Positions 2,736 through 52,193 of a stretch of 64,000 nucleotides of DNA are shown here, in pieces. Every line of letters starts with the position of its first letter. The stretch's first letter is position 1. The notes under the pieces were generated by a model. That model was given only the letters and a program-made list of their open reading frames with translations. It did not search any database and had not been told where the DNA came from. The position numbers and the translations under genes were made by a program. This DNA is from Ceratodon purpureus (taxonomy: Eukaryota; Streptophyta; Bryopsida; Pseudoditrichales; Ditrichaceae): contig CM026426.1 in assembly GCA_014871385.1 (NCBI GenBank), forward strand, positions 16,368,183 to 16,432,182, written 5' to 3'.

Positions 2736-4239
2736 AGAATAGAGGCGGCCGCAAGTCTGCTGTAGAAGCGGGCACTGGTACAGTCACCCCCGAGACCGGA
2801 GAGACACAGGCGATAGGGGAGTCATCGAGAAAGAAGAAGGGAAAGGCAGCGGCTGCGGAGGGCGAGGGTGGAAGACAGAAGAAAGGTGGGAAGGAGGAAG
2901 AGAAAAAGCAGACTGTGGCGGAAGCTCTCATACTCGCCAACAATCTCACTTCCAAAACAAAGGACACCGACGTCCTTGCTATGTACCAGACGTTGGAGGA
3001 GGGACTTGGGCACTGCTTCCCCAACGGGCAACGTGCCCTTCCTTGTCAGATTCCATATGACAGGATACACATAGCTCTCGACAAATTTTAGTACAGAGCG
3101 ATATTTAGGAAGAGGTAGGATCAGATAAGTCTTTTCTACAAAGGACTTGGAGCAATCCGGAAGAAGCCCGAGCTGTACTGCCTTCCTATGAGTAGTGACC
3201 CCAGAGTAAAGGATCCAGTGACGGGCGTGATTATTAAGCTTAAAGGCTTGGAAGCAATTCTTAGACCTATGCCAGCCCTAAATATCAAGTATTCGTATAA
3301 ACAGGCTGACGGCACACAGAAGGAGGTACCTCGGTATGAAGATGAGCTCATCCATTGGTACATAATTAAGGGCCAGCACACGTTTGAGGCTTGTCGAGAA
3401 CAGGGAGAGAAGGAACCACTGGACTTTCCTATGCGGCAGTATTACCTTAACCACGATATCATTCCTGTATGGTCTGATGACAAGGATACCCTCATTAAGG
3501 TCTCTAACGCATTAAACATCGAGGTGAAGGATAAAGTCGCCGAAGTAAGTTTTAGGTCCCAGCTGGAGAAGATGCGCGCCAAATGGATTGAGAGGGGGAG
3601 GATCGACAAGAAAGATGACTTCAGCGCATGGAAGGTAAGTCACATCTTCCTCTTTTCTTGTTGTTTACATGTAGTTGAAAGTCGTCGGCGGCCCGCCGAC
3701 GCTCAGGTGGTTCTCCGTATTGTAGAAGTGAGATTGATTTATCGATTTCATTTTCTTCTTCCTTACAGGAGTTCTGCAAGGAGTACCTCAGTCCGATTCT
3801 CGGAAAGTCCCCTATGTCCCAAACCATCAAGCTGCCCTTAGTCTTCGTTTCTGACAAAACATACAACGAGTGGCAACTGGTCTTCAACGCATGGGAGGAG
3901 GGGAGGATCATTGGGGAGGACGGTTTAAAACCAGGATTTCCCCTAAAGCCAGCCCGCCGGGACATAACACTCAACGACATGGAGTACGTGATCGGTCTTT
4001 GGGACCACGAATGCAAGAGGCTGGCCAAGGAAATTCTGGACCTTAAAGTGTACGTCAAGGTCAGTGGGAAAGAGGTGGTTCAACGGGACAGAACATCATT
4101 GGAGAATTGGTGTAAGCATGTGAAATACGAGTATGTTGTCCGAAACGAGCTTATGTGCATTTACAGAGGCTTCGCACTTAAGAAACGAGGGACTGGGAAG
4201 CATATTGAGTGGAGCATGGATGACTCGAATTCTCTTTAA
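2736..4239 (+). pseudogene. Element A ParB-like gene, N-terminal half
   Basis: Two exons (about 2736-3634 and 3769-4239) are joined by a GT-AG intron. The first begins with a Lys/Glu-rich low-complexity region. It then contains a ParB-like segment, WYIIKGQHTFEACREQG, followed some 20 residues later by HDIIPVWSDDKDTLIKVSNALN. Both match the 'IIdGxxRlxA ... ipVivr ... a..DN' layout of the ParB/Sulfiredoxin fold, with GQHT replacing the usual G-x-R-R. The same signature and the same downstream intron position occur in element B (44.0-45.3 kb). The frame is interrupted by a few in-frame stops, so this copy looks inactive. The intron carries the element A palindrome at 3684-3700. Assignment to ParB is by motif only. 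Confidence 0.5.
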
Positions 4240-4287
4240 GTCGAGAAAGGGTTCGATTAAACGATAATTAGTAATATTCGTGCTGAC

Positions 4288-5669
4288 TTGGAAGATAGTC
4301 CTGAGGGGAAGGAGTGGCTTAAGGGACGAAATCATCCGCTCACGCCGTCGCACGGGGCAACACCCGAATTCTTCAAGGACATTGTGCAGAAATACTGGAA
4401 GTCGGATGTGGATCACTCTTCGCAGTCGTTTGTACAATTCGATGCCCGGATTGCACAGGACCTGGGTGAAGTGTGCACAACTCTTGACGTTCGCGGAGCG
4501 TTCTCCTTCGACAAGGCGCAGTATTAGATGTTCGTAGTCTTTGGCTACGATCCAGTGGGAAAGGAGATGCCGAACTTGCGACAAAGAGACATTCTAAGCG
4601 TCGCTGAGAGGATTCACCGTGAGGTGGAGGAGGAGGTCATTCAGGTGGATGGGGAGGGAGAAACAATTAAGGTGAATAAGCTTGTCACCCCATCCTTGTG
4701 GCTACTCGATGCTGAGTCCAATTACATTCTTGAAGGCGTGTCAAGGCTGACGGGTAGTTCGTGGACGGTGCATACTATGCAAATATACTTCCCCGATAGT
4801 CCCGCCGGGTTTCAAAGGAGTTCTCTCATTGACTCTAGGCCCAAGGTTCGTGTGTCCGTTATGTATCCAAAAACAACGCCCGGGGATGCATGGAATACCT
4901 TCTCGGACTTCACTGGTTTGAAACGTCCGCTTCCTCCCTCTGTGGACGAAGGAGAAGACGGTCTTGGGGAGGATTGGTCTAATGGAGACTGCCACGCTAG
5001 TTACTCTTACCTCCAATCTCTTCTGGAGAAAGCGATGCAGTTAGACGACGTTCGGGTGATCAATTGTTGGGGAGGGGGGAAAGTCACGGCCCTCGCTCTG
5101 GTAAGTCACTACTGTCTCTTCTAGTGCCTTCGCTGTTTGCTCACCGATCGTCGGCGGCCAGCCGACGCTCATTGCATCCTTTGTGTTTCTTGGGTACAAG
5201 ATTTCCTTAACCGTTTCGTCTTGTTCTTCTGCAGAAAAACCATTTGACTGTAATTGAGATCGTGCGTATCGAGGAAGAGAGATTCCAAGCGCACTGTCGG
5301 GTTCGGAATATGACGTTCATTCCAGGCGTTTATAACGTGCCCCTCGAAGCTCCAGTTCAGACCACGCAGTCTGGGACCGGGCCGTCTGTCTCCGCCTCTG
5401 CTAGAGCCAGGACTAGCACTCTCAAGCCTGTCGTCTTCGGTGTGAATGCGGAGGAGGCCCATTTGGTCAGAAAGGGTGGATGTATGGGTTCAGGGAAGAC
5501 TGCAGGGGTTCCTTCACAGAATATTGAGGACTCCGACGAGGTTCCACCAGATGTACCCGACCCAGACGTTGAAGGTGAAGCTTACCTTCCAACTGGAGAT
5601 GCTTATGAACAGGCAAGAAACGAGGACGACCAAGCAGAGGCTCGCATTCCACTGGAGATGCAGAGGTAG
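4288..5669 (+). pseudogene. Element A degenerate DNA-methyltransferase-like half
   Basis: This continues the ParB-like gene in the same frame, with an intron at about 5101-5234. Just before the intron is DDVRVINCWGGGKVTALAL, and after it KNHLTVIEIVRIEEERFQAH. Together they resemble motif I of N4/N6 DNA methyltransferases (VlDpFaGSGTT..aA followed by igiE....ya). The upstream LWLLDAESN lies where DPPY would be. The catalytic DPPY and FxGxG residues are altered, so enzymatic activity is unlikely. Element B has the homologous segment with the intron at the same place. The intron contains a palindrome at 5150-5166. The methyltransferase reading is inference from spacing and hydrophobic pattern, not from intact catalytic motifs. 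Confidence 0.4.
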
Positions 5670-5721
5670 AGGAGAGATACACGGAGGACTAAGACTATGA
5701 GTCTATGAACCAGAACCCGAC

Positions 5722-6220
5722 ATGGTACCACTGAAAGGTTTGAATCCTCGTTACCTGAACCCACCGCTGTCGCAAGTTACAAGGGAGCAAGGAACTGACT
5801 CCCTCGGCTTCGGTAATAATTTTCCTACAATACATGAGCAGGAGACTCCTCTCGCCGAGCCAGTTAGTGACCTAGACCAGGCAGGGCCTCCAAGGAAGAT
5901 GCAGGTTCCTCTAGCATCGAGGCCTGACGAAGAAGTGGTTGTCCGTGTCCATAAACCAATCCAGGAGCCTGCAGTGAGCAATGAAGGGCCTCTTCCTCCT
6001 GCTGCCGTCGGCGGGCAGCCGACGACAGACGAGCAAACCTCATCTAACCCCTCTGCCAAGTCCAAGTTGACAGGGAAGTCAATCACATTTGTCACTCAGG
6101 GTGTGAAGGGCGCAACTCGGATGATTGGCCCAGATGAGAACCCTCTGGGCAAGACACGAGCATTGAAGAGAAGTAAGACCGATGGTACTGCTCAGGATTC
6201 CTCTCTTGTGGGTAACTTAT
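5722..6220 (+). CDS. Element A low-complexity linker exon, cut by LTR insertion
   Basis: The frame starts MVPLKGLNPRYLNPPLSQV and is rich in Pro, Gln, Glu and Ser with no domain. It corresponds in position to the low-complexity linker of element B (48168-49289). The element A palindrome at 6007-6023 lies in frame and is translated as VGGQPT, the same peptide that the palindrome encodes at the end of the HAD frame at 18.08 kb. The exon is interrupted at 6220 by the LTR retroelement, whose target duplication is CTTAT. More element A sequence resumes at 15532. Confidence 0.45.
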
Positions 6221-7022
6221 TGTTAACTGGGGATTTAAGGTAATAGAATAGAGGGGCAGTAAAACTGTAGGGGAGCAGTAAAACTGCTGTTACTAGGGGG
6301 GGGGCAGTAAACTGTTAAGTTACTGTCCTACCCTCTAGTAACTCTGTTGGATGAAAACTGCCTGTTTTGGATGAAAACTGTCAGATGGATGAAAACTGTC
6401 AAATGGATGAAATCTGGTGGTCGGATGAAAACTGTTGGCAGTTAGGGTTTTGGGGGTGGCGGCTAGGGTTTTGGATGGGGTTGTGGGAGAGGGGGCTGCG
6501 AAGCTCATTCTCTCTCTCTCCCTCTCAGTTCTGAGCTCTCAGATGGTAGTTTGTGTGTAGGACATGTTGTAGGACTGTATGAGGATGTTGTTAGAGCAGT
6601 TTTCAGGACCCTGGGGGGTCCAGATAGTGATATCAGTAGAGGGCAGAATCATGTACGGATTTTATAGTGAGTAAAGGGAAGGAATTGACTACATTGGGTG
6701 TAAATGTCTGAAATTGCAGTTATGAGTGCTTGAGGGACCAGGTTAGTGGATTCACCTGGTGGGTCCAGTAGATCTGGTGTTTAAATGAGTGGGTATTGTA
6801 GATCAGACCAAGGAGAGTAGAAAAATGTATCAGATCTAGGAAAATACTATCAGGATTTGAGTAGATCTAAATTGGCAGTTTCAGATCTAGGACTCGGATT
6901 TTGGACAGTTTCAGGGCAGTTTCAGGGCAGTTTCAGGGGGCACTACAGAATTTTTCGCAGGATTTCAGAGAGCTTTAGGACAGTATTCATTTTTGAAGGA
7001 GTACGAAAAAATTCCTTTCACA
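6221..7022 (+). repeat. 5' LTR (802 bp)
   Basis: It starts TGTTAACTGG and ends CTTTCACA. It contains GCAGTAAAACTG motifs, several GGATGAAAACTG tandem units near 6350-6430, a TC-rich run near 6510, and a triplicated GGCAGTTTCA near 6906. It is almost identical to the copy at 14729-15526 apart from a few substitutions and one extra short segment near its end. Confidence 0.95.
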
Positions 7023-8213
7023 TTGGCGACCATGCAACAGTTCAAACCATGTGGCTCTAGCTGCACACACCAGGATAGTACCAGATCCGTACTGTTCCAG
7101 GGGTGACTGGCACAGTGGCGATCCACGGTCTGGGGGGAGCAGATCTGACAGTTCTAGGGAGCAGATCTGATTGTTCCAGGGAGCAGATCTGCACCAGTGG
7201 CAGTCACAGTGACCAGATCTGTGACAGTCAGGTTACTGTGACCAGATCTGGAACAGTAAGAGTTTTTAAATAGTCATAGGAGGTGTTTCATCAGTGACAC
7301 CAGGAGCAGTGCAGACAGGATCAGTCGGGACCAGTCAACAGCCAGCTGGATAGGAGGCGCATCTCTGGAGCTGAGGGCAGCTCTACATCAAAAGGGGGAT
7401 AGTTAGCCAGGACCAGGTAAGTTGCTGTTTCCCGCTAATTTGAGGTTGCATTGCAAGGAACAATAGGCTGAATGTATGACCAGCGGTAAAAAACGGAGCA
7501 GTCAGTAAAAAACAGTCATAGATCTACTGTCTACGTAAATGGGCAGAGAGTAAAAATGTCGCAGTAAAAAAAAAATGAGGTAAAAAAAAACAAAGCAGTC
7601 AAAAAATCGCAGTAAAAAACGATGCAGTAAAAAATTGAGGTAAAAAATGGAGCAGTAAAAAATTAAGATAAAAATGTGGCAGTAAAAATGAACACCAGGG
7701 AAAAGGAAGGAAAGGAACCTAGGGACGAGTGATAGGAGTCTGGGAAGGAAACTAGACCTAAAAATCACTAGATCTAGGAAAAAACAGTCAAACTGGACCA
7801 GGACAGTGAAAAACTGGACCAGTTTCACTGAAAACTGTAAAGGCAGTACTGGAGGGTCCAGGACAGACCTTTTGGAAAACACTGTAAAACTGTATTGCTA
7901 AGAAATCTGGTATAATTCTAGACTAAGGATAACCTTGAAAACCTAAAAGGCAGTTAGGGCCAACCTAAGTAGGAGCAGTTGCTACTGACAGATCCACAAA
8001 GGACCAGGCTGGGGTGGCAGACGGTTGTACTGACAGGGACCAGGAGTACGAAGGACTAGTACCGGCAGGGACCAGAGGAGGACTGGGACAGAGATCCACA
8101 GTACCTACCCAAGAGATCACCTGGAGGGGCAGACTCGGCTTACTGGAGAAGCAGACAGATCAGAAGACCACCAGCAGGAAGGACCAAGAGGGAGGAGCAG
8201 TAACTGCCCTATC
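7023..8213 (+). other. Leader of the LTR element
   Basis: This untranslated leader begins with the primer-binding-like TTGGCGACCATG. It is rich in GACCAGATCTG and CAGATCTG units and then in purine-rich GCAGTAAAAAA runs (7500-7700). No convincing gene is present; the long minus-strand frame at 7502-7882 is a low-complexity Phe/Leu shadow of the A-rich tract. A second purine run (AAAAGGGGGATAG) near 7390 resembles the polypurine tract before the 3' LTR. Confidence 0.6.
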
Positions 8214-9143
8214 ATGGAAGGCGACTACCAAGGGTGGGATAAGGAAGAATTAGCTAGAAGACAAGCAGCAGAGAGGCTGGCCAGATACGAGCTTAGGGAG
8301 CAGCAGAGAGCGGCAGTTGAACCAGGCAGGAACATGGGGGGGCAGCCCAGTTCTGAGGAGAGCATTGCCAAAGGAAAGACCAGGGACTTGATTGACATGG
8401 ACCTGGTGGGCGAAAATTCAAGCCAGGAGACACTGCTTGGAGTAAGCAGGAGGACCGGATCAGCTAAGGGCGAACCTGGTCCCAGTTTCAAGAATTGGCA
8501 GGAGGATGAAGAGATCAGGAAGTATGATGGCACAATGCCATCACCAAGGACCAGCAGAAGGGAGTTTCCAAGACCAAGAGGTGGAGACGTCCATCACAGT
8601 TGGAATCCTCAACTGGAAACAGCAGTAGCATATGACCAGTTTGAAGAGGAGCAGAGGAGAAACACCAGCCGACCTAATACACCAAGACCAGGGATACAGA
8701 CACCAGGAGACTTGGGGGAGACGCTGGAGACACTGAGGAAGAAACTGGACCAGGTCAGGAGTGAGGACAGGGCCTCAGGAGAGGCAGTACCCAATTCAGA
8801 CCCGACCAGGACCAGCAGACAAGGACAGCAGACCACCAGGAAGCAGACAGTCCAGTTCGTCCAGGACCAGTTCCAAGGACCAGAGCAGGATGAAGAAGAG
8901 GAAGACAAGAGGCAACTGGAGCAGTTCAAAGCCCAACAGCAAGCTAGGAGACAGGCTGAGAGGGCCAGAAGGGACCAACAGACCATGGAAGAGGTGTACA
9001 GACACCAGATGGAGGAGCTAGGACAAGCCACCAGGTTCAAGGAAACCATGCAGACTTGGGAGCAGAAGAACTGGGAAGAAATTCAAATGAAGGAAGCCAT
9101 GAGGTTATGGCAGGAGACCAAGAGGATAGAAGAGCAGGACTAG
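8214..9143 (+). CDS. LTR element coiled-coil frame upstream of Gag
   Basis: A frame of about 309 codons starts MEGDYQGWDKEELARRQAAE and is rich in Gln, Glu and Arg. Its second half is an almost continuous helical/coiled-coil repeat (RRQAERARRDQQTMEEVYRH; MQTWEQKNWEEIQMKEAMRL). The same Gln/Glu-rich style continues at the start of the Gag frame just downstream, so both probably belong to one long N-terminal extension of Gag. GACCAG heptamers recur in it in more than one phase. It is part of a fossil LTR element, and its separation from Gag reflects decay. Confidence 0.55.
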   Translation: MEGDYQGWDKEELARRQAAERLARYELREQQRAAVEPGRNMGGQPSSEESIAKGKTRDLIDMDLVGENSSQETLLGVSRRTGSAKGEPGPSFKNWQEDEEIRKYDGTMPSPRTSRREFPRPRGGDVHHSWNPQLETAVAYDQFEEEQRRNTSRPNTPRPGIQTPGDLGETLETLRKKLDQVRSEDRASGEAVPNSDPTRTSRQGQQTTRKQTVQFVQDQFQGPEQDEEEEDKRQLEQFKAQQQARRQAERARRDQQTMEEVYRHQMEELGQATRFKETMQTWEQKNWEEIQMKEAMRLWQETKRIEEQD

Positions 9144-9230
9144 GAGGGACAGAGGCAGGAAGCCCTTAGATCCTGGCAGGAAGCTCAAAGGAGGGAAGAA
9201 ATCAAGCAGGCAGCAGAGAAGCAGGAGGCC

Positions 9231-12200
9231 ATGCAGCAGGACCTGCTACGCCAGGAGGCCATGCGTCTATGGCAGGAGGCCCAGAGACTGGAGGACCAGA
9301 AGAAAAAGGAGGAAGAGAGACAAGAAGCAACCCGCCAGTCTACCATGTACAGGTGGCAAGAGGTGTTGAGGGAGGAAAGTCAGAGATTACAGGCCCAGCA
9401 GAAGGACATGTGGCCAGGATATGAACAGTGTGAGGTACCAGGTGGAAGATCTGGTCCAGGAAAATCAGCAGAAGTGATGGGGGTACCAGTACCAGCAACT
9501 GCTATACCCCAGGGACCAGCAGAGAGCCATTTCCATCACCAGACAAGACCAGCAGGTCCATCGGGAGGAGGAGGAGCATCAACAACCTATGTGGACCACC
9601 TGACTGGTGATCTATACCAGCCAGAGGCACCACAGTTAGTGTACTGGCCAGGTGGGGGAGCAGAGGGGGGAGCAGGAGCCACCAATCCAGGGACAGGATT
9701 CCGAAGACCAGCAGAGGCAGTTGGAGGAACATCATATGGGCCCAGTCCACCAGTGGGGGGTGGAGTACCAGTGGCAACAGCAGCCAGCAGTTATCCAGAC
9801 CGGCCGGTACCACCAGTTTACCCACCAGTTGGAAGGCCAGGTATACCACTAGTATACCCACCAGATGGAAGGCCAGGTATAGGACCAGTGTTCCTACCAG
9901 TTGGAGGACCAGTGTACCCACCAGTAGGAGGACCAGTCTACCCACCAGTTGGAGGACCAGCCTACCCACCAGCTACAGGACCAGTCTACCCACCAGTCGG
10001 AGGACCAGTATACCCACCAACTACAGGACCAGGCTACCCACCAGCTACAGGACCAGGCTACCCACCAGCTACAGGATCAGGCTACCCACCAGCTATAGGA
10101 CCCGGCTATCCACCAGCTACAGGACCAGTATACCCAGCAGTTGGAGGACCAGTCGGACTACCAGCATCGGGACCAGTAAGTATGGCACATCGGAAGCCAC
10201 TGCCATACTCCAAGTACAAGGAAGGTACAAATCCTGATGCTCATATTCGTCAGTTTGAGCGTACTTTGTGGCACAATGGGGAAACTGATGAGCAGGTTAT
10301 CATTAACCTGATGGGTACCACCTTACTGGATAAGGTCGGGGCCTGGTATGAGAATTTTCTGGAGAGTCACCTTTACTGCTCATGGGAAGAAGTCAAGGCA
10401 GCCTTCAGGAGAAGATATAGGGACCAGACAACTGATGAAGCAGTTTACAGGGAGCTGAAGTCTTTCAAGCAGGCAGATAGGGAGAAGGTGCAGGATTACT
10501 ATGACAGGTTTATGACCCTGATCAAGTGTCTGCAGTCAGACCCTGGAGAAGGATTTCGGATTACTAATTTCAGGGCAGGTTTAGTGGAGTACATCAAGAT
10601 TACGACCAGTGTAGCACCAGTCAAGACTCTGACAGAGTTGGTGGATGCTGCTCTGAGGTGTGAAGAAAACTGCACTGATTCAAGTGGCAAGCCAACCAAG
10701 ATTGAAGTCAAGAAAGTGGAGACCACCAGTAAGCCAACGACTGTGACCAGGAAGGAACTAGGTCAGGATGCTCCTAGGCGAATCTGTGGCACATGCAAGA
10801 AACTGGGCCATGAAGATCGAGACTGCTGGTACAACCCAGCAAACGAGAGGGGACCAGGTGTTGAGAAAGATGGAGATGTACCAGTAGGAGTGAATGTGGT
10901 GTCTGCTCAGAATCCTGCTGTAGTCTACACTCCTCGATACCAGAGGTCACCAAACACCAGAGCAGGTAATGGCCAGCAGGGAAGTTATGGTGACAAGCCA
11001 GAATGTTGTTTTTTGTGTGGTGGATCAGGGCACAGGAGCTGGAACTGCCCCCTGAAGGCCCAGTGGGACCAGTTCCGAGCACAAGGGGACCAGTTTCGGG
11101 CACAAGGGGACCAGTTTCGAGCAGAAGGGGACCAGGCAATGAAGAAGCAGGACCACCATGTGACGAATGTGGAAATTGAATGGCTGGATGAGCCACAGGA
11201 CCCAGTGGACGTGGCCAGTATGACCAGGGCCCAAAGGAAGAAGGCAGGATTACCTCCGATTGAAGACCAGTCCAAGGAACCAGAACCAAGGAAGGTCCAG
11301 ACCAAGGAAGATGAACGGCTCAGGGATTCTACGCTAGAAGCTTTGAAAGAGATTCAGCTCAAGGAGGAGCAGGAGGCCAGAGCAGCAGAGCAGACCAAGA
11401 CTGTTCACTCACCTGAAGCTCAAGAGACGGCTGAAGCAGAGATACAAGACAGTGAGTGGGCAGGATTTCCAGATTCTGACGTCTTCAATTACAGCTTAAA
11501 GACTGCTCAACAGGGACCAGGAGTACTTGCAGGGACCAGTACAAGGGAAGACCAGGAGCAGTATTATGCAAACCTGGTGGGTAGGAGGATATTGGCCAGT
11601 CCAGTCACTGTGCCTTTGGGTCAGCTACTACAGCTAGCTCCAAACCTGACTGAGATTGTCAAGGCTCATGTATTTCCGGAGTTAAGGGCCAGTAAGGATT
11701 CAGGTCAAGGAGAAACGGCTGGGGTGGAGCAAATGACCAGAACAGCAGGTCAACCATGTCTGATACCCAGCTTGGCAGTAGATGTTGACACGGAATTACC
11801 TATGTTAGCTGTGCAGATTGGCAACGGGACCCTGGACAAGGTATTGCTGGACAGTGGATCTGGTGTCAATCTCATTACTGAAGAGGAGCAGAAGCGTTTA
11901 GGACTGAAGGACCCACAACCTGCTCCCTACAAATTGAGGATGGCAGACCAGACAGTGGTGGAACCGGTAGGGATAATCAGAAATGTTAAGGTATACATCC
12001 ATAGCATTCCTTATCTGATTACACTGACTGTCATCAAGAATAAGGAAGTGAATGAGGAGTATAGCATGCTGTTAGGTCGTCCTTGGTTGATCGATGCAAA
12101 AGTCAATCATGACTGGGGTAGAAATCTGGTCACAATTCGAGGCAACGGGACAGTCAAGACAGTTTCAGTGAGCCAGAAGAAGGGGTCTGGACCAGATTTA

Positions 12201-13376
12201 CCTGAGGTACTGGTCTGCTACAACCTTACTGAAGGACTCATAGATGAAGAGGAGGAACGTTGGCTGGACACCAAGCAGGATGTACTGGTTGTTGAGACAG
12301 TAGCACTGCCCCAAAAATATGGAGACCAGGAGCCGGTGGCAGGAGCAGAAAGGGCCTATCTGGACCAGTTTCTGACAACCATACCAGAGTACTCGACCAA
12401 GGGACTGGTCGAACAGCAAAAGGGGGATAGTGGGCAAGTAGGCCAGGAAGGGACCAGTTTGGGTGACCAAGCAGGCCAGGAAGGGACCAGTTCGGGTGAC
12501 CAAGCAGGACAGGAAGGGACCAGTTCGGGTGACCATGACAGCACCAGCACCAGAGGGGACCAGCAGAACAAGACAAGAGGGGACCAGGGAGAAGACCAAG
12601 ACCAGCAGAACAAGACAAGAGAGGACCATGGAGAAGACCAAGACCAGCAGAACAAGACAAGTGGGGACCAGGGAGAAGACCAAGACCAACAGAACAAGAG
12701 AAGAGAGGACCAGGGAGAAGACCAAGACAAGCAGAACAAGACAAGAGAGGACCTGGAGGCAGACCAAGACAGTGCAGGCCTTAAGGACCAGGACCAAGAC
12801 CAGGACAACAATTTTTTCAAGGATCAGGAAGCAGACCAAGATGAGCGGAGCAGGAATAGACAGGACCAGGACAGCAAAAATGAAGAAGGACAGAACAAAG
12901 ATCAGAAGCAGCAGAATAGGTGGGAAGAGGGCCAGAGTTCAGAAAAAAGATATGAGGGCGAAATAGAGGAAAAAATAATAGAAAAAAGAGAAAAAAAAGA
13001 TGAAGTAATCAAAAAAGAAGCAGGAGAGAAAGAAAGGAAGCAGCTAGCAGTATTGTGCGGGGTAGAGGGAATCAGCCCTCTAAAACATGAACAAGATATA
13101 GGACAGCAGGAGGAGCTCTGTGAGCCAAGAGGAGGAGGTTGCCAAGGTTACAGTAGGAGCAGTTGCCAAGGCAGAGAACAGCAAGAGCTTGGAGACCAGG
13201 AGCAAGAGCATGAAGACCAGAAGAAAGAGGTTGGAGACCAAGAAGATGAGGCAGCAGCCAAGATAGAGGACCAGAAGAACGGGAGTCTGAAGAAGGACCA
13301 GCAGGACACCATTCCAAATGACCAGGAAAAGAGAGTGGATAGGTTGGACCAGGAAAACAGGGACCAGCCAAGATAG
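9231..13376 (+). CDS. LTR element Gag-aspartic protease with GDQ-rich tail
   Basis: This frame of about 1381 codons has several parts in order: a Gln/Glu-rich helical region; a proline repeat at about residues 185-315 built of YPPVGGP/YPPATGP units; a retrotransposon Gag domain at about 317-460 (MAHRKPLPYSKYKEG, then EEVKAAFRRRYRDQ); zinc knuckles near 518 (CGTCKKLGHEDRDC) and 590 (CCFLCGGSGHRSWNC); a retropepsin near 865-965 with LLDSGSGVNLI and MLLGRPWL; and a long charged tail of GDQ/EDQ repeats. No polymerase follows. The heptamer GGACCAG is read as GP(V/A), DQ and TS in different parts of the same frame, which points to selection on DNA rather than on peptide. Treated as a fossil; no functional claim is made. 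Confidence 0.88.
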   Translation: MQQDLLRQEAMRLWQEAQRLEDQKKKEEERQEATRQSTMYRWQEVLREESQRLQAQQKDMWPGYEQCEVPGGRSGPGKSAEVMGVPVPATAIPQGPAESHFHHQTRPAGPSGGGGASTTYVDHLTGDLYQPEAPQLVYWPGGGAEGGAGATNPGTGFRRPAEAVGGTSYGPSPPVGGGVPVATAASSYPDRPVPPVYPPVGRPGIPLVYPPDGRPGIGPVFLPVGGPVYPPVGGPVYPPVGGPAYPPATGPVYPPVGGPVYPPTTGPGYPPATGPGYPPATGSGYPPAIGPGYPPATGPVYPAVGGPVGLPASGPVSMAHRKPLPYSKYKEGTNPDAHIRQFERTLWHNGETDEQVIINLMGTTLLDKVGAWYENFLESHLYCSWEEVKAAFRRRYRDQTTDEAVYRELKSFKQADREKVQDYYDRFMTLIKCLQSDPGEGFRITNFRAGLVEYIKITTSVAPVKTLTELVDAALRCEENCTDSSGKPTKIEVKKVETTSKPTTVTRKELGQDAPRRICGTCKKLGHEDRDCWYNPANERGPGVEKDGDVPVGVNVVSAQNPAVVYTPRYQRSPNTRAGNGQQGSYGDKPECCFLCGGSGHRSWNCPLKAQWDQFRAQGDQFRAQGDQFRAEGDQAMKKQDHHVTNVEIEWLDEPQDPVDVASMTRAQRKKAGLPPIEDQSKEPEPRKVQTKEDERLRDSTLEALKEIQLKEEQEARAAEQTKTVHSPEAQETAEAEIQDSEWAGFPDSDVFNYSLKTAQQGPGVLAGTSTREDQEQYYANLVGRRILASPVTVPLGQLLQLAPNLTEIVKAHVFPELRASKDSGQGETAGVEQMTRTAGQPCLIPSLAVDVDTELPMLAVQIGNGTLDKVLLDSGSGVNLITEEEQKRLGLKDPQPAPYKLRMADQTVVEPVGIIRNVKVYIHSIPYLITLTVIKNKEVNEEYSMLLGRPWLIDAKVNHDWGRNLVTIRGNGTVKTVSVSQKKGSGPDLPEVLVCYNLTEGLIDEEEERWLDTKQDVLVVETVALPQKYGDQEPVAGAERAYLDQFLTTIPEYSTKGLVEQQKGDSGQVGQEGTSLGDQAGQEGTSSGDQAGQEGTSSGDHDSTSTRGDQQNKTRGDQGEDQDQQNKTREDHGEDQDQQNKTSGDQGEDQDQQNKRREDQGEDQDKQNKTREDLEADQDSAGLKDQDQDQDNNFFKDQEADQDERSRNRQDQDSKNEEGQNKDQKQQNRWEEGQSSEKRYEGEIEEKIIEKREKKDEVIKKEAGEKERKQLAVLCGVEGISPLKHEQDIGQQEELCEPRGGGCQGYSRSSCQGREQQELGDQEQEHEDQKKEVGDQEDEAAAKIEDQKNGSLKKDQQDTIPNDQEKRVDRLDQENRDQPR

Positions 13377-15526: not shown

Positions 15527-15531
15527 CTTAT

Positions 15532-29431: not shown

Positions 29432-29435
29432 ATGT

Positions 29436-42764: not shown

Positions 42765-45315
42765 ATGGCAGGGAGTTCATCCAGAGGGCCCGGGACCGCA
42801 AGAGTCTGGGAGGACCCGTAAGTTTTTTTCTTAATCTCAAATTCTGAGCTTAGTGACATTTTTCCTTTATCACATCTCGAAATGCCTACGTCCCAGTCCG
42901 GCTTAAAAATCAGCTCCACCTCTTATATACTGTAAACACTAAGGTTTGAACATAAACTGTACGGAACTGAGAACCTCTTCCAACAAAATAAACTGTACGG
43001 ACACTGTAAAAAACTTCAGTGATATCCGTTGATGCGATAATAATGTCTTTGGTCCATCGGGAGATCTCTCGATGCGTCAGTATCCCTTTCCACTCTTCCG
43101 GAACGGCATGCCATCGGGGGATCTCCCGATGACCACTCTGCACATAACCTTGGTCCATCGGAGGATCTCTCGATGCGTCAGTATCCCTTTCCACTCTCTC
43201 GGAACGGCATGCCATCGGGGGATCTCCCGATGACCTTTTTCACTTGAAATTACCATTGATGCGTCACTATCCCCTTACCAGTCTGTGGGGACGGCAAGCC
43301 ATCGGGGGATCTCCCGATGACCACTCTGCACATGTCCTTGGTCCATCGGGGGATCCCTCGATGTCTTCGAATCCCCTTCTCATCCTGTGGGTATGGCAGA
43401 ACATTGGGGGATCTCTCGATGACCCACTCAGTACAAACCATATTAATAAAACATAAACTTATAACCAGGTAACCTCACCGAGGGCAATGAACTGTATGGA
43501 CAGCGCTATTTTGATTAGGTGTCATATCGTTGGTCCATCGGGGGATCCCTCGATGACCCACTCAGTACAAACCATATTAATAAAACATAAACTTATAACC
43601 AGGTAACCTCACCGAGGGCAATGAACTGTATGGACAGCGCTATTTTGATTAGGTGTCATATCGTTGGTCCATCGGGGGATCCCTCGATGACCCACTCAGT
43701 ACAAACCATATTAATAAAACATAAACTTATAACCAGGTAACCTCACCGAGGGCAATGAACTGTATGGACAGCGCTATTTTGATTAGGTGTCATATCGTTG
43801 GTCCATCGGGGGATCCCTCGATGTGTTGGTATCCCATCTCATCCTGTAGGTATGGCAGAACATCGGGGGATCTCCCGATGACCTCAGTGCCCTTTCGTGC
43901 CTCTGATTTTTTCAATGGTACTGTGAGATAATTGTTTCTACAAATGTTAACTGATTTGGAGCAGGGATTTGACCAACAGTGATGTCTGTCTGTTCTGCAG
44001 GAATGAACAGATAATGGAGCCACCATTGGACTTCAAGCCCGTTAAGCTGTTCCCCTTTGTCGATCACTGGATCCATAGCTACAATCACGTCGGAGAATCA
44101 AATCCGTGCGCAGTTTACCGCTGCGATAAGAACGTCACCGAATGGGCCATGTCGTGGAAGGATACGGCAGGAGGCATGGCCGTCATTGTCCCCCATCTCA
44201 CCTGTGAAGGGCGGATCCATTCCCCGATTGGATTGAACGTTCTCGAACTGAAGGGCCTTGATGTGGGGACAGCTATCATGGTGGTGGAGGAGAAGATGCC
44301 GAAGTCCGATCGGACTGTAACTTATGGACTGATCCTCGACCTCGGCAAGCTCAGCCTGAATCAGTGTGCATCCCTCACTGCCAAGGGCTTGATGTACCTG
44401 CCGGAGGATAAGGCGAAGTGGACTCCGGCACAAATTGAAAACCAGTGGAACCTAATTGACGAGGCGCGAAGTGAGGTTGAAGCTGCTGCTCCTGTTCCAT
44501 CGAAGACTCCGACTGCGACTACTCCTACGAAGAGGCGGGGCACAAAAAGGAAATCTTCCTTGATCAATGACGGGGAAACTGCGGTGACGGACACAGGGAA
44601 GGGCAAGAAGGAAAAGGGTGATGACAAGCTCACTCTACAGCAGTGTGTGACAATGTCAGCTTCGGATATTGACAAGCTGGACAAGACCAAGCAGACGGAG
44701 ATGAAGAACCTGTACAGCGAGGCGTTTGAACCACTGTACAAGTGGGGCCACGAGAGGCTCAAGGATGAAAATGATGCGCCAATAACTGTGCACTTCTCAA
44801 AGCTGCACAGGGCCCCTCCAGGTTCAATCGTCTACCGAGGACTTGTTCCGGACAGGCTAAAAGCCTTGACGAACCAGGCGCGCATCGCTCCGAGGTACAG
44901 TGGAACAGATAGAGAAATCACTGTACTTCCACTGAAGAAGGGACCTTATGGACCGGATAAAAAAGTAGAGTTTTTCAGTAAACCTCCGGAGAAGAATCAG
45001 ATCAACAGCTCCACTCCATTCTTCATCATTGGGGGCCAGCATACGGTTCAGTGTTACCGAGATCTCGTTGAGAGTGGGGAAATTGCTGGGGCTGACAAAG
45101 ACAAGGCGTCTAAGTTCTCAATCATCCCAGTGTGGGCACCCAAGCCTGAGCACATCAAGCTCATGCTCCTCTCACGGGTCCTGAACCAGGATATGGCCGG
45201 GCCACAGAAGGAGCACACATTCATGATGCAGGTGCTCCACGCCAGAATCAAGTGGAAAGAGTTGAAGTGCCCGATGCCAGCCTTACAGGGACGGCAGCAC
45301 CCTATAGAGTTTCTG
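42765..45315 (+). CDS. Element B ParB-like protein, N-terminal exons
   Basis: The gene starts at ATG 42765 in a short exon (MAGSSSRGPGTARVWEDP, donor about 42820). It resumes at about 44001 after the acceptor GTTCTGCAG and runs to a donor at 45315. The N-terminus has a novel ordered region (MEPPLDFKPVKLFPFVDHW; GLILDLGKLSLNQCASL), then a Lys-rich linker (TKRRGTKRKSSL). The ParB-like core is FFIIGGQHTVQCYRDLVESG plus IIPVWAPKPEHIKLMLLSRV and LNQ. This fits the ParB 'dGxxRxxA ... ipv ... DN' order, with GQHT in the phosphate-binding position. No stops interrupt it. The first intron holds eleven palindromes and the 134-bp tandem repeat. Predicted role: DNA or nucleotide binding. Confidence 0.6.
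43421..43822. repeat. 134-bp tandem triplication carrying the palindrome
   Basis: Three near-identical head-to-tail units (43421-43554, 43555-43688, 43689-43822) start GACCCACTCAGTACAAACCA and each ends in ATCGGGGGATCCCTCGAT. Near-identity implies recent amplification. They lie in intron 1 of the ParB-like gene. Confidence 0.93.
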
Positions 45316-45669
45316 GTAAGTCTGTATTCCCCTCCTCATCGAGAGATCCCCCGATGATCTTAGTTGTATATCTGTATATATGTATCAAAGTCATCGGGAG
45401 ATCCCCCGATGATCCGAGTTGTAGAAATGTATGTGGCCCCTTAGAGTATTCCTCGTACTTCCAATCATCGGGCGATCCCCCGATGATCTTAGTCGTATGT
45501 CTGTATATATGTATCAAAGTCATCGAGAGATCCCCCGATGATCCGAGTTGTAGAAATGTCCGTGGCCCCTTAGAGTATTCCTCGTACTTCCCATCATCGG
45601 GCGATCCCCCGATGGCAACTTCCTTTGTCGGAGAGCTCTACTAACCCTCCCCCGACGTGTGGTACGCAG

Positions 45670-47766
45670 CAATTCACTCAAGCTCTGGCATCGATCTTCA
45701 CAAACGTGAAGGAATCAGAGCTAAGGGACTGCAAGATACCGCTACTGTTTCTTGAAGACGATACGGCGGTTGACCGGTGGGTGGAGATTGAGAAACAGTA
45801 CATGAAGGGAAAGCTCCCAGATGCGCAAGGGAATGTGCAGACGAACTATGACCTCAAGCGGAAGCCATTTGTCCAGAACGATTTGAAACCACTATACGGC
45901 CTGCGCTCAGAGGATATCCATCACCTTGCTGACCTCGTGGAGAAGAAAGAAATATCTGTGAAGGGATCGAAGGCCACCAAAGGTGATAAAGTGGCGAGAT
46001 TACCGTCCCTTCAAACAGCAGGGAATAGGGAAAGACTGATCATATGTATGAAGAACGAGTTGATGAACAACTATTGTGGTTGGGAGCTTCCAAGCCGTAA
46101 GAGCACATACGTAATGTATCCTGCACATGAATGGGACGAGTTTGCCGACGTGAAGAACATCACTCGCGCGGAGCTGGAGAGCTGGCTCGATAAGGCGTAT
46201 GCAACGGCTTCGGGGAAGAAGTGGCTGGACGACCGAAACAGGAACCTCAACAAGACCTGTGATCCTGCGGACGTGCCTGACTTCGTTAAGGTGATGTGGG
46301 ACGCTCACAACATGGTACAAGAGCAAGCAAGTCACTTATCGCACATCCAGAAGGGGTTCAATCAGAAGTATAAGTGCGTGGTTACGGACCGGAGTAGGCC
46401 CGAGATTTCTGTTATTTTGCGAAGTGAAGAAGTGTATAGTTGGAGAGGAGGGGCAAAACCACACATATTCATGTACTTCGGGTTTGATGCGATCGCTGAC
46501 ATGCCAGTGAAAGCTCAGGTGCTACAGGAGAACGTCCTGTCTCGGATATTCGATCCTCTATTGGGGCAGGAACTTAACAGCACGCAGGTCTTTGTTCGCT
46601 CAGGAGCAGTTGTCTTCACAGATGCGGCGGGATTCCATGCGACACTACTGCACATCGATATGCGCACGAGGACAGCGAAGAGGAGGTTGTGGAACTGGCA
46701 TGTGGTCCACTACGTCCCTTCCCGCGAGGACGGATTTCCCGAACCGGAGCTGGGTTCTTCATACGTTGTCTACATGATTTTCTGCTTCGCTTATTCGCCA
46801 ACGCAGTCTCCGAAGGAATGCTTCGGGGATTTCTTTGCGGGCAAGAGGCCATTCGACGCAGTGTACCTGGCCAAAGACATTACGGAAACCATCCAGCAAT
46901 GGAGACGACCTGGTCGACCAACGATTAAGGTGGCCGCCCTTTCTACTATCTTTCAGCAGCACATTAAAGATAACATGGTGCTCGTAAACGTCAACGGCGG
47001 GGCTCACTTCACCCTCCTTGGACTTGTAAGTACTCTGTCTGCACCCTTCGAATGTTGAAGTCATATTAGATATTTCTCTTTCACTGACTCGAATGCTTCC
47101 ACTTTAGTTCATACTTGTGCGAATACACTGTTGTTCTTGAGACTTATTATGCAGATGTCCTCCACTTATAGTACTCGCGATATATGCACTCGTTCACTCA
47201 CGTATATAGAATCTAAGTCAGAAGTCCTTCTCTGTTCTCAGCCTCAGTGTTTCCGGATATGTCCTCACGGATACAAGATTTATCGGGGGATCCCTCGATG
47301 GACGGATAACGTCTTAAAAGTCTAGGCTTAAGGGGTTCTCAAATCATCGAGGGATCCCCCGATAAATCATGCACTTCTGTCCACATTTCCCGGCACCTCT
47401 GATCCCTTACGCAATGAAATTGAAAGTGACATTTGGTTACAGTCTGCTGTTCGCATTTTATACATGTTCATATCGCCTGCATGTCTACAGGAAAACGAAG
47501 CCATGGTCCTCGAAGTTGTCTTCTGTGACGATGATGAGAAACACGCGAAGAAGACGTCGAAGCAGATATGGGACATACTTTACAAGGACGCAGTTGACCG
47601 AGATGAATTGGTAAACGATGATGCTGGTGACGATGGTGATGATGAGGCAGGCGGTGGAGAGGGTGATAATGAAGATGGTGTGCCTGCTAATGAAGATGCC
47701 CGCGAGCAATCGCCGCGTGGTGATTCCGAATCCAACTCTGACGAGGAGGAGACGGCTTGCACCTCG
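45670..47766 (+). CDS. Element B degenerate N4/N6 methyltransferase-like exons
   Basis: Exons 45670-47025 and 47491-47766. The first carries a region homologous to element A (YVVYMIFCFAYSPTQSPKEC, then FFAGKRPF). VVFTDAAGF sits where DPPY is expected. RPTIKVAALSTIFQQHI then runs into DNMVLVNVNGGAHFTLLGL, the place of motif I, and the next exon opens ENEAMVLEVVFCDDDEKHAK. This order (IV, then KP..L..I, then FxGxG, then E) is that of beta/gamma-type N4/N6 DNA methyltransferases, and ParB-methyltransferase fusions are known in phages and bacteria. Catalytic residues are not conserved, so a DNA-reading rather than modifying role is inferred. An acidic tail follows (DDAGDDGDDEAGGGEGDNED). Intron positions match element A. 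Confidence 0.45.
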
Positions 47767-48167
47767 GTAGGTTCTTGACCTTAGGCAGGCTTCCCTAATT
47801 TGGGATTCCATGTTGTTTTATCCAGTGGCGAAATCTAGCATGATTACTACCCTCGTGTAGGGGTTCTGTAAGAAACTGTACCATTCTGTAAGCATCATAA
47901 ATTGCATACCATTATGGAAAATGAGGAATTTAAATTTCTGGAAAACGCTATACCTCTCCCGACCAATTATTTCATTCCATGTAACATCCCCCTCACGACT
48001 AAATTCCCTACTCTTGTGAGCAAGGCACCTCTCTTTTGTTTGCTTAGCACTGCTCCTCGGGTCAACTTCGAAGGCATTGTAGTATTCCTGTACCATATAC
48101 TGGAACCCAATTTCTACTCCACTGCAGCTTTTCTTACCGCTAATGGTTACCTGCGCTCATATTCCAG

Positions 48168-49289
48168 GGACTGCTGAACTCCGGGCGCGTTTATGGTGGA
48201 GCTGCGTCGAGGAATCACACCGTTGACGATTCTCACGTGGGGGAGTCCTTGACGCCACGAAGCGATGTTGCCACCGTGTCGGGAAACACGAAGGACGTAG
48301 CTCGGTCGCTGCTGGATATGAGGATATTACCTGTGGATCACCAGACTCAGACTACGGAACCTGAAGGTGGCGCAGAAGACGTGGGAGAGGGTGCTGACGG
48401 GCTGGATGACTTGGACTTTAATGTCCAGAACTTCGCTGCGGTTCTGCGAATGAATGAATCCGCACCAGCAGGAGAGGAGGACGCGGGAGTTCACAGGGAT
48501 TCGGAGGGGACGGATAGGGATGCTGTGGACCCGGGAAGGATTTCTCCTCCTCAAGAGCAGGAGACGGAGGGAGGAGTAGCTGATAGTCAGCATGAACCGT
48601 GCATCCCACCATCGGGAGATATCCCGATGACAGAAGGCAGTGCACCAATTCCAAACCAACACCCCCCCGTACCTGAGGAGTGCGGTCCTCAGAGTTCGCT
48701 GTCCGTCACTCCTTATGTGATCCCTTGCAGCCCCCCGCCTCCTCTCCCATCCAGCCCCCCGCCTCCTCTCCCACGGATTACATCTCCCGGGGAGACTCAT
48801 CAGTCTCCCCCCGTGGCTCCTGACATGAACGAAGATGTTGTTGACGACACTCTGAAGGATTTAGACGCGTTCAGCCCGGAGAAGACGTCGTGCGACGCGG
48901 AAGCCCTGGTGTGCGACGATGTGAAGGCATGTGACGAGGTCAAAGACAACGACGCGGAAGTGGAGGAGTCTACCGAGGATTTATATGAAGGGCTCCCAGA
49001 CAACGCACCTACGGAGGTATCCACTGAGGTAGATGTAGTCGAGGTGGAGAAATCTAAGGACACAGATCGTGAATGTCGCTCACTTGTGCTGGAGAAGCGT
49101 TTGCAACGATCCCTTCCGCCGGAACTTCCGTCGGGAACAACATCCGGTCCCCCGGCCACACGAGGAAAGGGTAAGTCTGGGCCTAGCACCGGAACGGGGG
49201 TCAAGGGGAAGGGAAAAGGTTCCGGTGCTGAGAGAGAGCCTAAGGGAAAAAGCACTCCAGCAGGAGCTCGTGCTAGTCTGGACGAACAG
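48168..49289 (+). CDS. Element B acidic/basic low-complexity linker exon
   Basis: The exon opens after ATTCCAG (GLLNSGRVYGGAASRNHTVD) and ends near GARASLDEQ|gtaagg. It is disordered: Asp/Glu-rich, a PPPPLPSSPPPPLP proline run, then a Lys/Gly-rich end (KGKSGPSTGTGVKGKGKGSG). A palindrome variant at 48611-48628 is read in frame as PSGDIPM. The corresponding exon of element A is split by the LTR insertion. Splice phase to the next HAD exon is not perfect with the simplest boundaries, so an additional small exon is possible. Confidence 0.5.
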
Positions 49290-49855
49290 GTAAGGGATCA
49301 CATATCCCAGCGTGGGAATTACACCCCACCCTCTGGCAAGGCTAAGCATCTTGAAGCAGTTAGACAGGCTCACGAGTTCGTTTACAAGGACTATAATGAT
49401 AAAATCCCATTTACTAATGACTTTGAAAAAAAACCTTTACCAGATTCCGACGTCTAAAACGGTTGGCATTTCATCGGAAGCCGAAGATCCGAATTTGGAC
49501 GACAGTGCGAAAGGTATCTAGTCGGACTCTAATTGTAGGACTGATAGTTCTAATGTCCTCAGATTGGACATATGTAGAACGTGTAGTGTCTCCTGTAGAT
49601 GCTTGAGGAATTCAGTAAACATGTGCATCGAGGGATCTCCCGATGCTTGGATCTACTATGACATTTTTTCAGTGGACATCTATATCGAGGGATCTCCCGA
49701 TGCTGAATGTTGATCACACCTGTTCACAGTGGACATCTATATCGAGGGATCTCCCAATGTTGAATGTTGATCACACTTGTTTACAGTGGACATCTTTATC
49801 GAGGGATCTCCCGATGCTGAATTCTGATGAGACTTTTTTTGGTTGCATTTTCCAG

Positions 49856-50508
49856 GGCCCCCTCTCCCATCCTCCGTTCCAGCAAAGGTGATCGGAAAGG
49901 TACCCGGTCGAAGGTATTCGGTTGTACTAGACTTAAACGGGGTTCTCGTTCACCGTGGGATTTTTGTCAAGGGAAAAAAGCGCCCTATAATGCTCAGACC
50001 TGGATGCCAGGAATTCCTGAACTGGCTTCATACTCAGGCAACGGTAGCCTTTTGGACCAGCATCGCGCCTAGGAATATACCTGAAACTCTTCTTGTTGTT
50101 CTTCAGGGCACCTCCTTACAGCTGCGAGATGTGCAGGTTCTTAGCCAGAACGAATGCACACGTTCGTCATACGTGGAGTCGTCAAAACCAGACAAGCCGT
50201 TCTTTCTAAAGGATCTCCGTGTCTTACCTAAGTTCCTGGTATTGGAGTCCGTTGAGAAAGTCCTACTAGTGGATGATAGTCCACAGAAGAACCTTCTCAA
50301 CGACCCTCATAACGCTGTCCACCCCCCAACCTGGTCCGGGGATGGTGGTGATAGGTTTCTTACGATGACACTGAAACCGTGGCTGGAGGGTCTATTCAGC
50401 TCAGGGGAAGCTGTCCCAGAGTATGTGAAACGGGCCCCGCTTCCGTTTGGTCAGTTCCCCATGGACCGGTCGTCGGACTTGGCACTGAAGATATTGAGGG
50501 CGGTGTAG
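49856..50508 (+). CDS. Element B FCP/SCP-like HAD domain 1
   Basis: After the acceptor TTTTCCAG the exon reads YSVVLDLNGVLVHRG (motif I, second Asp replaced by Asn), TVAFWTSIAPRN (motif II Thr/Ser) and KVLLVDDSPQKNLLNDPHNA (motif III), and ends LALKILRAV. The FCP/SCP family dephosphorylates the RNA polymerase II C-terminal domain and related targets. The missing second Asp argues against normal catalysis here. Four palindromes lie in the intron just upstream (49627-49815). It is the counterpart of the element A HAD at 15976, sharing the same Asn substitution. Confidence 0.75.
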
Positions 50509-50510
50509 CT

Positions 50511-50710
50511 TAGTACAAATGACTCTGGATTTTGGAACACTCATTTTATTCACAGTTCTTTATTGTCAATACATACATTCTCTCACATGACCATGTAATG
50601 AAGCGAAGATTGTAGTTTAGTGCAAATGACTTTGGATTATGGAACACTCATTTTATTCAGAGTTCTTCATTGTCAACACATACATTCTCTCACATGACCA
50701 TGTAATGAAG
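50511..50710. repeat. 104-bp tandem duplication after HAD 1
   Basis: TAGTRCAAATGACTYTGGAT through CATGACCATGTAATGAAG occurs twice in tandem with about 8% differences, starting just after the HAD 1 stop codon. Confidence 0.85.
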
Positions 50711-51017
50711 CTGTAGCTCCCTCATGTTTGATAGCAGAATGAAACTAACCGAGTTCTTGAAAATTTGCATTTGTCTTACTGAACGCAATGGAGTTCTGGA
50801 ACTTTGAATTTGTTTTGTTTTAAAATCGCTTTGCTGTGGTAATACTCTTTCAAGACATGGTCTGACCACCTCTGTGTGCCATGGCGTTGGGAGGCGCCAT
50901 CGAGATATCCCCCGATGAACTATGTTAGCGAATTCGTCATTTACAAACATCGGGAGATCCCTCGATGTTTAGTCTCAGATGTAGAAATGTCCTGATATTT
51001 TTATTTCAACTGTGCAG

Positions 51018-51620
51018 AAGGCGATAGTTCTCTCGGTTAATGGCGTCCTGTGCTTCGAGGATTATAAAGGATTCAGCCCGCCGTTGCTGGACTTAGGGAA
51101 TGTCATTTGCCGTCCTGGAATTCGACCGTTCTTTCGAAAGCTTCTTGAAGACTTCCATGTCGGTATATGGTCATGTATGCCCCCATCCCGCTTGGACCTT
51201 GTCTTAGCGCATCTGCTTCCACTGGAGCTTAGATCGCAGTTAATTTTTGTGTATGGTCAAGACAAGTGTGTTCGACAGAAGCCTTATCCATTCTTCCAGA
51301 AGTTCCTGCAACGACTTCGTATGGATAAAAAAACTCGCAGGTTTTGCAAACCGGGTAAAGTTCTCATGGTAGATGACTGTGAATGGAAGAATGTAATGAA
51401 TGGAAATCATTCCTGCTATTTCCCGACTCCTTGGAAGGGTGAAATGCACCTACCTAATCCGCGAAACGTCATACCAGACGTCGGCACAGCCTTACTTCCA
51501 TTCATTATGGATTTGGTTCATTATGACTCCGTTACTGAGTTCCTTCAGAAAACTCCCATGGATGGGGAATTGTGTAGGAGATCACTTAGGCAATGGTACA
51601 CCAGTAGAGTAGAACAATAG
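51018..51620 (+). CDS. Element B FCP/SCP-like HAD domain 2, motif I lost
   Basis: The acceptor AACTGTGCAG opens a frame KAIVLSVNGVLCFEDYKG. The nucleophile position is Ser, followed by VGIWSCMPPSRLD (motif II) and KVLMVDDCEWKNVMNG (motif III). CYFPTPWKGEMHLPNPRNVI parallels the element A HAD 3 segment CYIPWPFQGHLNFPNDDGVI. About 200 residues, no stops. It is the ortholog-like partner of HAD 3 in A; the retained fold with lost nucleophile suggests a binding function. Two palindromes (50899 and 50949) sit in the intron before it. Confidence 0.7.
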   Translation, partial: KAIVLSVNGVLCFEDYKGFSPPLLDLGNVICRPGIRPFFRKLLEDFHVGIWSCMPPSRLDLVLAHLLPLELRSQLIFVYGQDKCVRQKPYPFFQKFLQRLRMDKKTRRFCKPGKVLMVDDCEWKNVMNGNHSCYFPTPWKGEMHLPNPRNVIPDVGTALLPFIMDLVHYDSVTEFLQKTPMDGELCRRSLRQWYTSRVEQ

Positions 51621-52193
51621 ACAGTACATGCAGTGAGTTGGTTACAATCCAGTGGCCTTGTGTACCACGATGTATTAGTGGTAATAATATGGCACCGTCC
51701 ATTCGAATGACTTTCATGACAATACCTCATATTCATGTAACTTGTTTTTGTAATGTAAATGACTATTTCACCATCATCGGTCTATGTGTATTATTTGTAA
51801 TGTTATATTACTTAGTTTGTCCATACCATTTCACTCGTGCAATTGTGAGATGGCTGTTGTTCTTCCGGAAGACACCTATAACGGGAAATCTCCTGATCCA
51901 TGCTTTTGCAAAACACACATTATTCATTACATTACTTTGTCCATACATTTGTTCTTCCGGAACAACACTATATCGGAAGATCTCCTGATCCATGGACTTG
52001 CAAATCATACAATGTTCTATACATTACTTAGTCCACACATTTCCCTCGTCTTGGAACAACTCTATATCGGAAGATCTCCTGATCCAATCATTCAAATAAT
52101 TCACTATTCATAACAGTAGGGCATGGTTTTACTAAGCCCCTTTCATTTTCCTTGGCTTTTTCTGGACGATCTACAGTCCATAACTCAATGAAT
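51621..52193. other. Element B right subterminal region
   Basis: No gene is seen. Three decayed palindromes (CGGGAAATCTCCTGATCC and two ATCGGAAGATCTCCTGAT, near 51879, 51972 and 52066) lie in related repeat units of about 90 bp. GTCCATAACTC and TTCTGGAC near 52160-52180 echo the terminal sequence. Confidence 0.6.

Follow-up and report, generated by a model that had tools for sequence, protein, structure and literature searches.

Two related large DNA transposons of Ceratodon purpureus carry distinct palindromes in matching positions, possible targets of an element-encoded dimeric protein

Short dispersed palindromes mark two large transposable elements, here called A and B, in a 64,000-nucleotide stretch of the Ceratodon purpureus genome (assembly GCA_014871385.1, contig CM026426.1, positions 16,368,183 to 16,432,182 of the forward strand). 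This whole stretch is referred to as the window, and all coordinates are counted from its first base. Element B is a DNA transposon of 22,784 bp (29436-52219) with perfect 25-bp terminal inverted repeats (TIRs): ATGCCATATTTAACTATTTCTGGAC begins at 29436 and recurs in exact reverse complement at 52195-52219. The element is flanked by a candidate 4-bp target-site duplication (TSD), ATGT, at 29432-29435 and 52220-52223, which is short and so only suggestive. Around B lies a Mutator-like element (MULE-like element) whose inverted ends (22966-23172 and 57897-58103) are identical in 202 of their 207 positions; a MULE domain match within this surrounding element (55051-56031; E 3.2e-4, 21.5 bits) stayed under the cut-off of 27.6 bits.

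On its minus strand B carries a presumed transposase gene (33957-37321; three exons placed by eye). The sole Pfam match on 33957-35867 was PF25273 (DUF7869), with an E-value of 2.8e-44 and 151.5 bits against a cut-off of 26, and the middle exon gave an HTH_psq (helix-turn-helix) match under the cut-off (E 0.064). A literature search on DUF7869 found no paper. A second gene on the plus strand, P1 (42765-49289), contains a GGQHT motif and comprises exons at 42765-42817, 44001-45315, 45670-47025, 47491-47766 and 48168-49289. The four exons from 44002 onward encode 1,356 amino acids with no stop codon; the first exon and the splice sites were placed by eye, and the gene models of both elements are partly by eye. 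P1 is followed by two NIF-like domains on the plus strand, NIF1 at 49856-50508 (Pfam NIF, E 8.1e-17) and NIF2 at 51019-51620 (E 1.5e-4, 21.9 bits against a cut-off of 21.8). Between the two divergent genes, the stretch 38650-42000 is AT-rich (29% G+C), adjoins telomere-like AGGGTTT runs and contains six 128-bp tandem repeats plus a stray copy at 40487. TTTAGGG-like runs, together with the gene content, suggest a plant-like host. In viral contigs, no relatives of P1 (exon 44002-45316) or of the DUF7869 protein were confirmed. The idea, formed by eye, that the C-terminal part of P1 is a DNA methyltransferase was dropped, there being no profile match.

Element A spans 2641-19679 as far as seen; its left border was set by eye against the other sequence at 1-2640, and its true left end lies outside the window. 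The element is split by a nested long terminal repeat (LTR) element at about 6218-15545. Its P1 gene (3119-5668, plus strand) contains the GQHT motif and at least three in-frame stops (at about 4237, 4258 and 4525). The two P1 introns (3635-3768 and 5101-5234) are of identical length, 134 bp. To the right of the LTR element, and also on the plus strand, lie a first NIF-like domain (15976-16744; Pfam NIF, E 5.3e-13), a second, stop-broken NIF1 copy (17117-18100) that is 40-43% identical to the first (Pfam NIF, E 4.3e-7 on 17117-17536), and a NIF-like domain 2 (18413-19090; E 3.4e-4, under the cut-off).

By profile, the NIF/CTD phosphatase fold was clear for NIF1 of both elements, barely above the cut-off for NIF2 of B and barely below it for NIF2 of A. 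NIF/CTD phosphatases have the catalytic motif DxDx(T/V). The corresponding motif I of the five NIF-like domains (49831-51617 and 15936-19087) reads LDLNG (in B NIF1), LDING, LDIKG, LSVNG and LGVYG. The second Asp is missing from all five, none of which has the catalytic form. These domains look like dead phosphatases carried on a transposon, and in the absence of DxDx(T/V) the proteins may bind instead of cleave.

A and B are relatives, which the initial annotation had not recognised. The right-end sequence of A at 19657 differs from the TIR core of B at only 3 of 20 positions, and both elements have the gene order P1, then NIF-like domains. Their proteins are 33% identical for NIF2 (E 1e-32), 34% for NIF1 (E 2e-18) and 30% over 81 amino acids for P1 (E 2e-4). 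In addition, two phase-0 introns of P1 occupy the same protein positions, 3635-3768 and 5101-5234 in A corresponding to 45316-45669 and 47026-47490 in B. The sequences of the paired introns cannot be aligned: blastn returned pieces of 9-14 bases at best, with E-values of 0.11 or worse. The shared TIR core, gene order and two intron positions make A and B, judged from their sequences, diverged members of one large DNA-transposon family.

Each element carries its own palindrome. The initial annotation had reported 11 copies of GTCGGCGGnCnGCCGAC in A and about 40 of ATCGRGGGATCYCYCGAT in B. For A, the figure of 11 stands when up to three mismatches are allowed (range 3684-19619), and not as exact copies, of which there are 5. 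The B string occurs 23 times exactly, 36 times with at most one mismatch and 42 times with at most three (range 29564-52083), which bears out the estimate. Symmetric consensuses fit better than these strings: GTCGGCKGNCMGCCGAC occurs 6 times exactly and 11 times at up to three mismatches in the 7,707 bp assigned to element A, while ATCGRGRGATCYCYCGAT occurs 29 times exactly and 44 times at up to three mismatches in the 22,784 bp of element B. The enrichment over shuffled sequence was confirmed, since 60 dinucleotide shuffles per element gave no copy of either word at up to two mismatches, and at up to three mismatches the shuffle means were 0.08 for B (maximum 2) and 0.07 for A (maximum 1).

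A scan of the whole window at up to three mismatches found no copy of either palindrome in the nested LTR element, the MULE-like element or the right flank with its trehalase gene. The proposed confinement of each palindrome to its own element holds in the window, apart from a single A-like string with three mismatches inside B (31677). Among the near-perfect palindromes of the window, B-type sites make up 22 of the 35 of the 9+9 kind, and A-type sites 6 of the 46 of the 8+1+8 kind; the others that recur are AT-rich only, namely a tandem pair at 21782/21819 and overlapping strings near 39720. The privacy of each palindrome to its element is a within-window result. Elsewhere, the B string was found in 49 stretches of prokaryotic genome contigs and 8 stretches of viral contigs, and the A string in 54 stretches of viral contigs (two of them on one contig), always as one copy per stretch. 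By our arithmetic, which assumes equal base frequencies, about 60 occurrences of the B string are expected by chance in 257 Gb.

The half-sites, RTCGGCKG in A and ATCGRGRG in B, have 6 of their 8 consensus positions in common (TCGG and two inner G). This agreement suggests that the sites of both elements trace to one ancestral reader. Across the 44 B sites most columns hold 1.5-2 bits, and four purine/pyrimidine (R/Y) columns hold 0.74-1.05 bits. Flanking positions hold 0.01-0.33 bit, mostly 0.1 or less, except for the two bases directly adjoining the site (0.76 and 1.06 bits). These are C in 28 and G in 36 of the 44 sites, which extends the site to CATCG...CGATG. At positions 5/14 and 7/12, purines occur on one side and pyrimidines on the other, and variation at these four positions consists nearly entirely of transitions. 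The two positions of a pair do not vary together in a detectable way (mutual information P-values of 0.17 and 0.06 for the 44 sites, and 0.75 and 0.14 for the 24 distinct rows). Pairs that are palindromic number 16 of 44 at 5/14 (22.6 expected) and 14 of 44 at 7/12 (18.5 expected), and 12 of 44 sites have an A-C mismatch at 5/14. Such R/Y variation without covariation fits two subunits that each read R twice and disfavours an RNA hairpin, so that a DNA-level dimer site is favoured. A putative dimeric protein reading DNA, as had been proposed at the outset, is also the best fit to the symmetry of the sites and their non-random confinement.

Six matching slots are occupied in A and in B alike, each element having palindromes of its own type there. 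Placement of the A sites was by eye. The paired P1 introns hold one palindrome each in A (3684 and 5150), and five (45338-45613) and two (47282-47363) in B. Before the NIF1 acceptor, A has a site at 15908 and B four sites at 49627-49815; before the NIF2 acceptor, A has a site at 18314 and B two sites at 50899-50966. A further slot lies at the tail of P1, where the A site at 6007 presumably corresponds to the B site at 48611-48628 in the last P1 exon. The sixth is 3' subterminal, with three sites in A (19157, 19378 and 19603, within 19157-19619) and three diverged sites in B (51880-52083). The chance that 11 random sites would reach all four A stretches was estimated at 0.0014, a value to be read with the caveat that the stretches were picked after seeing the data and that the coordinates used were off the final ones by a base or two. 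The shared slots are new relative to the initial annotation. With A and B belonging to one family and carrying their sites in the same gene slots, the difference between their motifs is a change of spelling between relatives.

Outside these slots, the A sites at 16786 (3' or intergenic), 17174 and 18080 lie around the extra NIF1 copy, the latter two within two reading frames of this broken copy. The remaining B sites, all of them to the left of P1 or within its first coding intron, have no A counterpart in the window. They comprise six left-side sites (29564, 29659, 29906, 30124, 30832 and 31756), two in the DUF7869 gene (35163 in the reading frame and 35990 in an intron; span 35163-36007), an array of eight just upstream of the start of this gene (37342-37647) and an array of eleven in the first coding P1 intron (43056-43879).

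B sites avoid coding sequence: 2 of 44 are coding, although about 49% of comparable DNA is coding by our gene model (P about 1e-10 by site; 2 of 13 clusters, P 0.013). A purely non-coding placement does not hold for either element, since in A 3 of 11 sites (6007, 17174 and 18080) lie in reading frames. Tandem arrays with periods of 38, 57, 88, 92, 101, 129 and 134 bp run over the B sites. Over the A sites no tandem arrays were seen, and the flanks of the 11 A sites are unrelated. Ten groups of neighbouring B sites were compared with their flanks. The site was the less divergent part in 8 of them with 10-bp flanks and in 9 with 20-bp flanks. The exceptions at 10 bp were the groups '129bp b' and 'TAATC', the latter having a less divergent site at 20 bp. 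This comparison is a soft one, as closeness to the consensus was the criterion by which the sites had been chosen; moreover, the groups overlap and some flanks are not fully homologous.

We favour the interpretation that the A and B palindromes are targets of a co-evolved, element-encoded dimeric DNA-binding protein, most likely with an anti-silencing role, and would put the chances of this at about even. In this scenario, the element would encode a sequence-specific protein whose target sites are the palindromes, bound as a dimer with one subunit per half-site, and whose specificity changed together with its sites between A and B. Bound at introns, intergenic sites and terminal regions, the protein would coat its own element and most likely keep the chromatin open, opposing silencing by the host in the way VANC does in VANDAL elements. 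We infer this protein, its dimeric binding and the anti-silencing output from the VANC-like pattern of the sites, which would recruit a protein marking its own family. Candidate readers are P1, the DUF7869 protein with its weak helix-turn-helix match, or the NIF-like proteins.

The comparison with VANDAL and VANC drawn in the initial annotation is apt in location, in tandem spread (for B only) and in the different motifs of related families. According to the available text of PMC5735166, VANC motifs occur in introns, intergenic and terminal regions, lie in tandem repeats and differ between related families; the portion of PMC10398659 at hand likewise describes family-specific motifs that differ between related VANDAL families. 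Here too, a family-specific motif is mainly non-coding, is multiplied by tandem repeats in B though not in A, and takes related yet distinct half-sites in related families. In contrast, the palindromes span 17-18 bp, whereas the VANC21 motif, YAGTATTAY, has 9 bases, and palindromy is unmentioned in the available text of PMC5735166. Moreover, B carries a DUF7869 gene without a MULE domain match. By their pattern the elements are VANC-like, yet with no MULE (MURA/VANA-type) transposase detected in B they are not VANDAL/VANC members.

DNA transposons with extra genes that presumably counter DNA methylation are described in the available part of PMC12730594. In that text the elements carry an enzyme, whereas no TET/JBP domain was reported for the scanned A and B proteins, and the KDZ elements covered there have 8-bp TSDs, as against the candidate 4-bp TSD of B. 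No KDZ transposase was identified either, the Pfam result for 33957-35867 being DUF7869 only. A description of palindrome-bearing elements of this type was not found in the literature, among the matches listed.

Several observations weigh against a co-evolved element-encoded reader. P1 had no credible family match in profile searches (best E 0.069), and its structure model was too poor for use (pLDDT, predicted local distance difference test, 34). Only one copy each of A and B was seen. The three A sites in reading frames each encode V-G-G-(Q/P)-P-T, and three B introns (the 5' untranslated region intron, 36428-36526 and 47767-48167) are without sites. The correspondence of slots is also imperfect, since the pre-NIF2 stretches have an acceptor only, with gene models partly by eye, and the A site at 6007 lies beyond a stop, in an open frame other than that of the last P1 piece, which makes its slot a presumed one. 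Finally, a CpG content as high as that of A and B is also found in the palindrome-free MULE-like element and in the sequence at 1-2640. Observed/expected CpG ratios were 0.80-0.85 for A, 0.83 for B, 0.81-0.95 for the MULE-like element, 1.01 for 1-2640 and 0.71 for the trehalase side, and the nested LTR element was strongly depleted at 0.19-0.23, its neighbouring measured stretches lying at 0.7-1.0. High CpG is therefore not specific to palindrome carriers, and we dropped CpG content as proof of hypomethylation; it is compatible with it and not diagnostic.

The closest alternative keeps the element-encoded reader and changes its output, from anti-silencing to transcriptional self-regulation. 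It is unlikely, in our view, that the sites instead bind the presumed transposase or a partner and serve transposition control by titration, synapsis or copy counting. The DUF7869 gene with its weak helix-turn-helix match (E 0.064) would provide such a binder, eight sites lie directly upstream of its start, and diverged sites reach to within 128 bp of the left end of B and 136 bp of its right end. However, binding sites of transposases are normally concentrated at element ends, whereas the sites that are densest and match best here are internal and fall within introns of another gene, the terminal ones being among the most degenerate.

We give a similarly small share to molecular drive, in which the palindromes would be functionless, either self-dispersing short sequences or by-products of tandem duplication. 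Many B copies do lie in tandem repeats (periods 38-134 bp), the R/Y positions vary by transitions, and 2 of 10 site groups are no more conserved than their 10-bp flanks. This account has difficulty with the A sites, all 11 of which have unrelated flanks and no tandem arrays, and with the same slots being filled in A and B by different sequences.

A replication or maintenance signal read by P1 appears improbable. There are precedents for palindromes in such a role: parS is a palindrome of about 16 bp read by a ParB dimer, and the oriP of Epstein-Barr virus (EBV) has arrays of 18-bp palindromes read by the dimeric viral protein EBNA1. Two arrays of 18-bp palindromes flank the AT-rich part of B (about 3.4 kb), and hhalign placed the IIxGQHT of P1 on the ParB motif IIAGERR. 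Yet the AT-rich stretch, with its own 128-bp repeats, may be an insertion, and the sites run through the whole element. They are spread through genes, unlike those of oriP. The ParB set has GERR where P1 has GQHT, and the comparison of P1 with 30 ParB_N stretches was not significant (hhalign probability 2%, P 0.023, score 18.9; best of 30 column shuffles 14.8). Pfam gave no ParB_N match in P1 within a limit of E 10, with a filter that drops most matches above 0.1, and one viral record searched for PF02195 had none. We rejected P1 as a ParB protein: Pfam, NCBIfam, PHROGs, PDB sequences, tblastn to phages and plasmids, ColabFold and hhalign were negative, useless or not significant, leaving a likeness by eye only.

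Equally improbable, we think, is binding by a host factor, such as a silencer or an activator of the AP2/ERF type. Both arms of the A palindrome contain GCCGAC, the core of the dehydration-responsive element/C-repeat (DRE/CRT), but this is missing from the B arms. As the relatives differ in site sequence and share site positions, a co-diverging reader would fit better than a fixed host factor. That the palindromes act as RNA hairpins, in splicing, in termination or as small-RNA precursors, is very improbable: many self-complementary sites do lie in introns or untranslated regions, but 17-18 nt without a loop make a poor hairpin, and the pairing statistics given above argue against one.

To our knowledge, sequence-specific anti-silencing by transposons is known mainly from VANDAL MULEs. 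A bolder form of the co-evolved reader interpretation, which we advance tentatively and hold to be rather unlikely, is that A and B represent a non-MULE giant plant transposon family with its own self-recognition code, in which a dimeric reader and palindromes co-diverging in the same slots would provide private anti-silencing of an origin independent of VANC. If true, this second, unrelated transposon family with co-diverging palindromes would point to private self-labelling as a general strategy, and nature would have supplied, in the two elements, related readers with different 'spellings' on which switches in DNA-binding specificity could be studied. Thanks to the shared slots the idea can be put to a direct test, with two motifs and few candidate proteins.

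The surroundings of the two elements contain some further features. To the right of A and inside the MULE-like element, a 171-bp repeat occurs in three copies, at 20413-20583 (inverted with respect to the others), 21285-21455 and 26997-27167. The MULE-like element also contains an open reading frame at 27566-28435 that appeared Ulp1-like by eye and for which Pfam returned nothing. Its right end is adjoined by the trehalase gene, at about 58500-62750, with a PF01204 match at E 3.6e-27 on 59429-59749.

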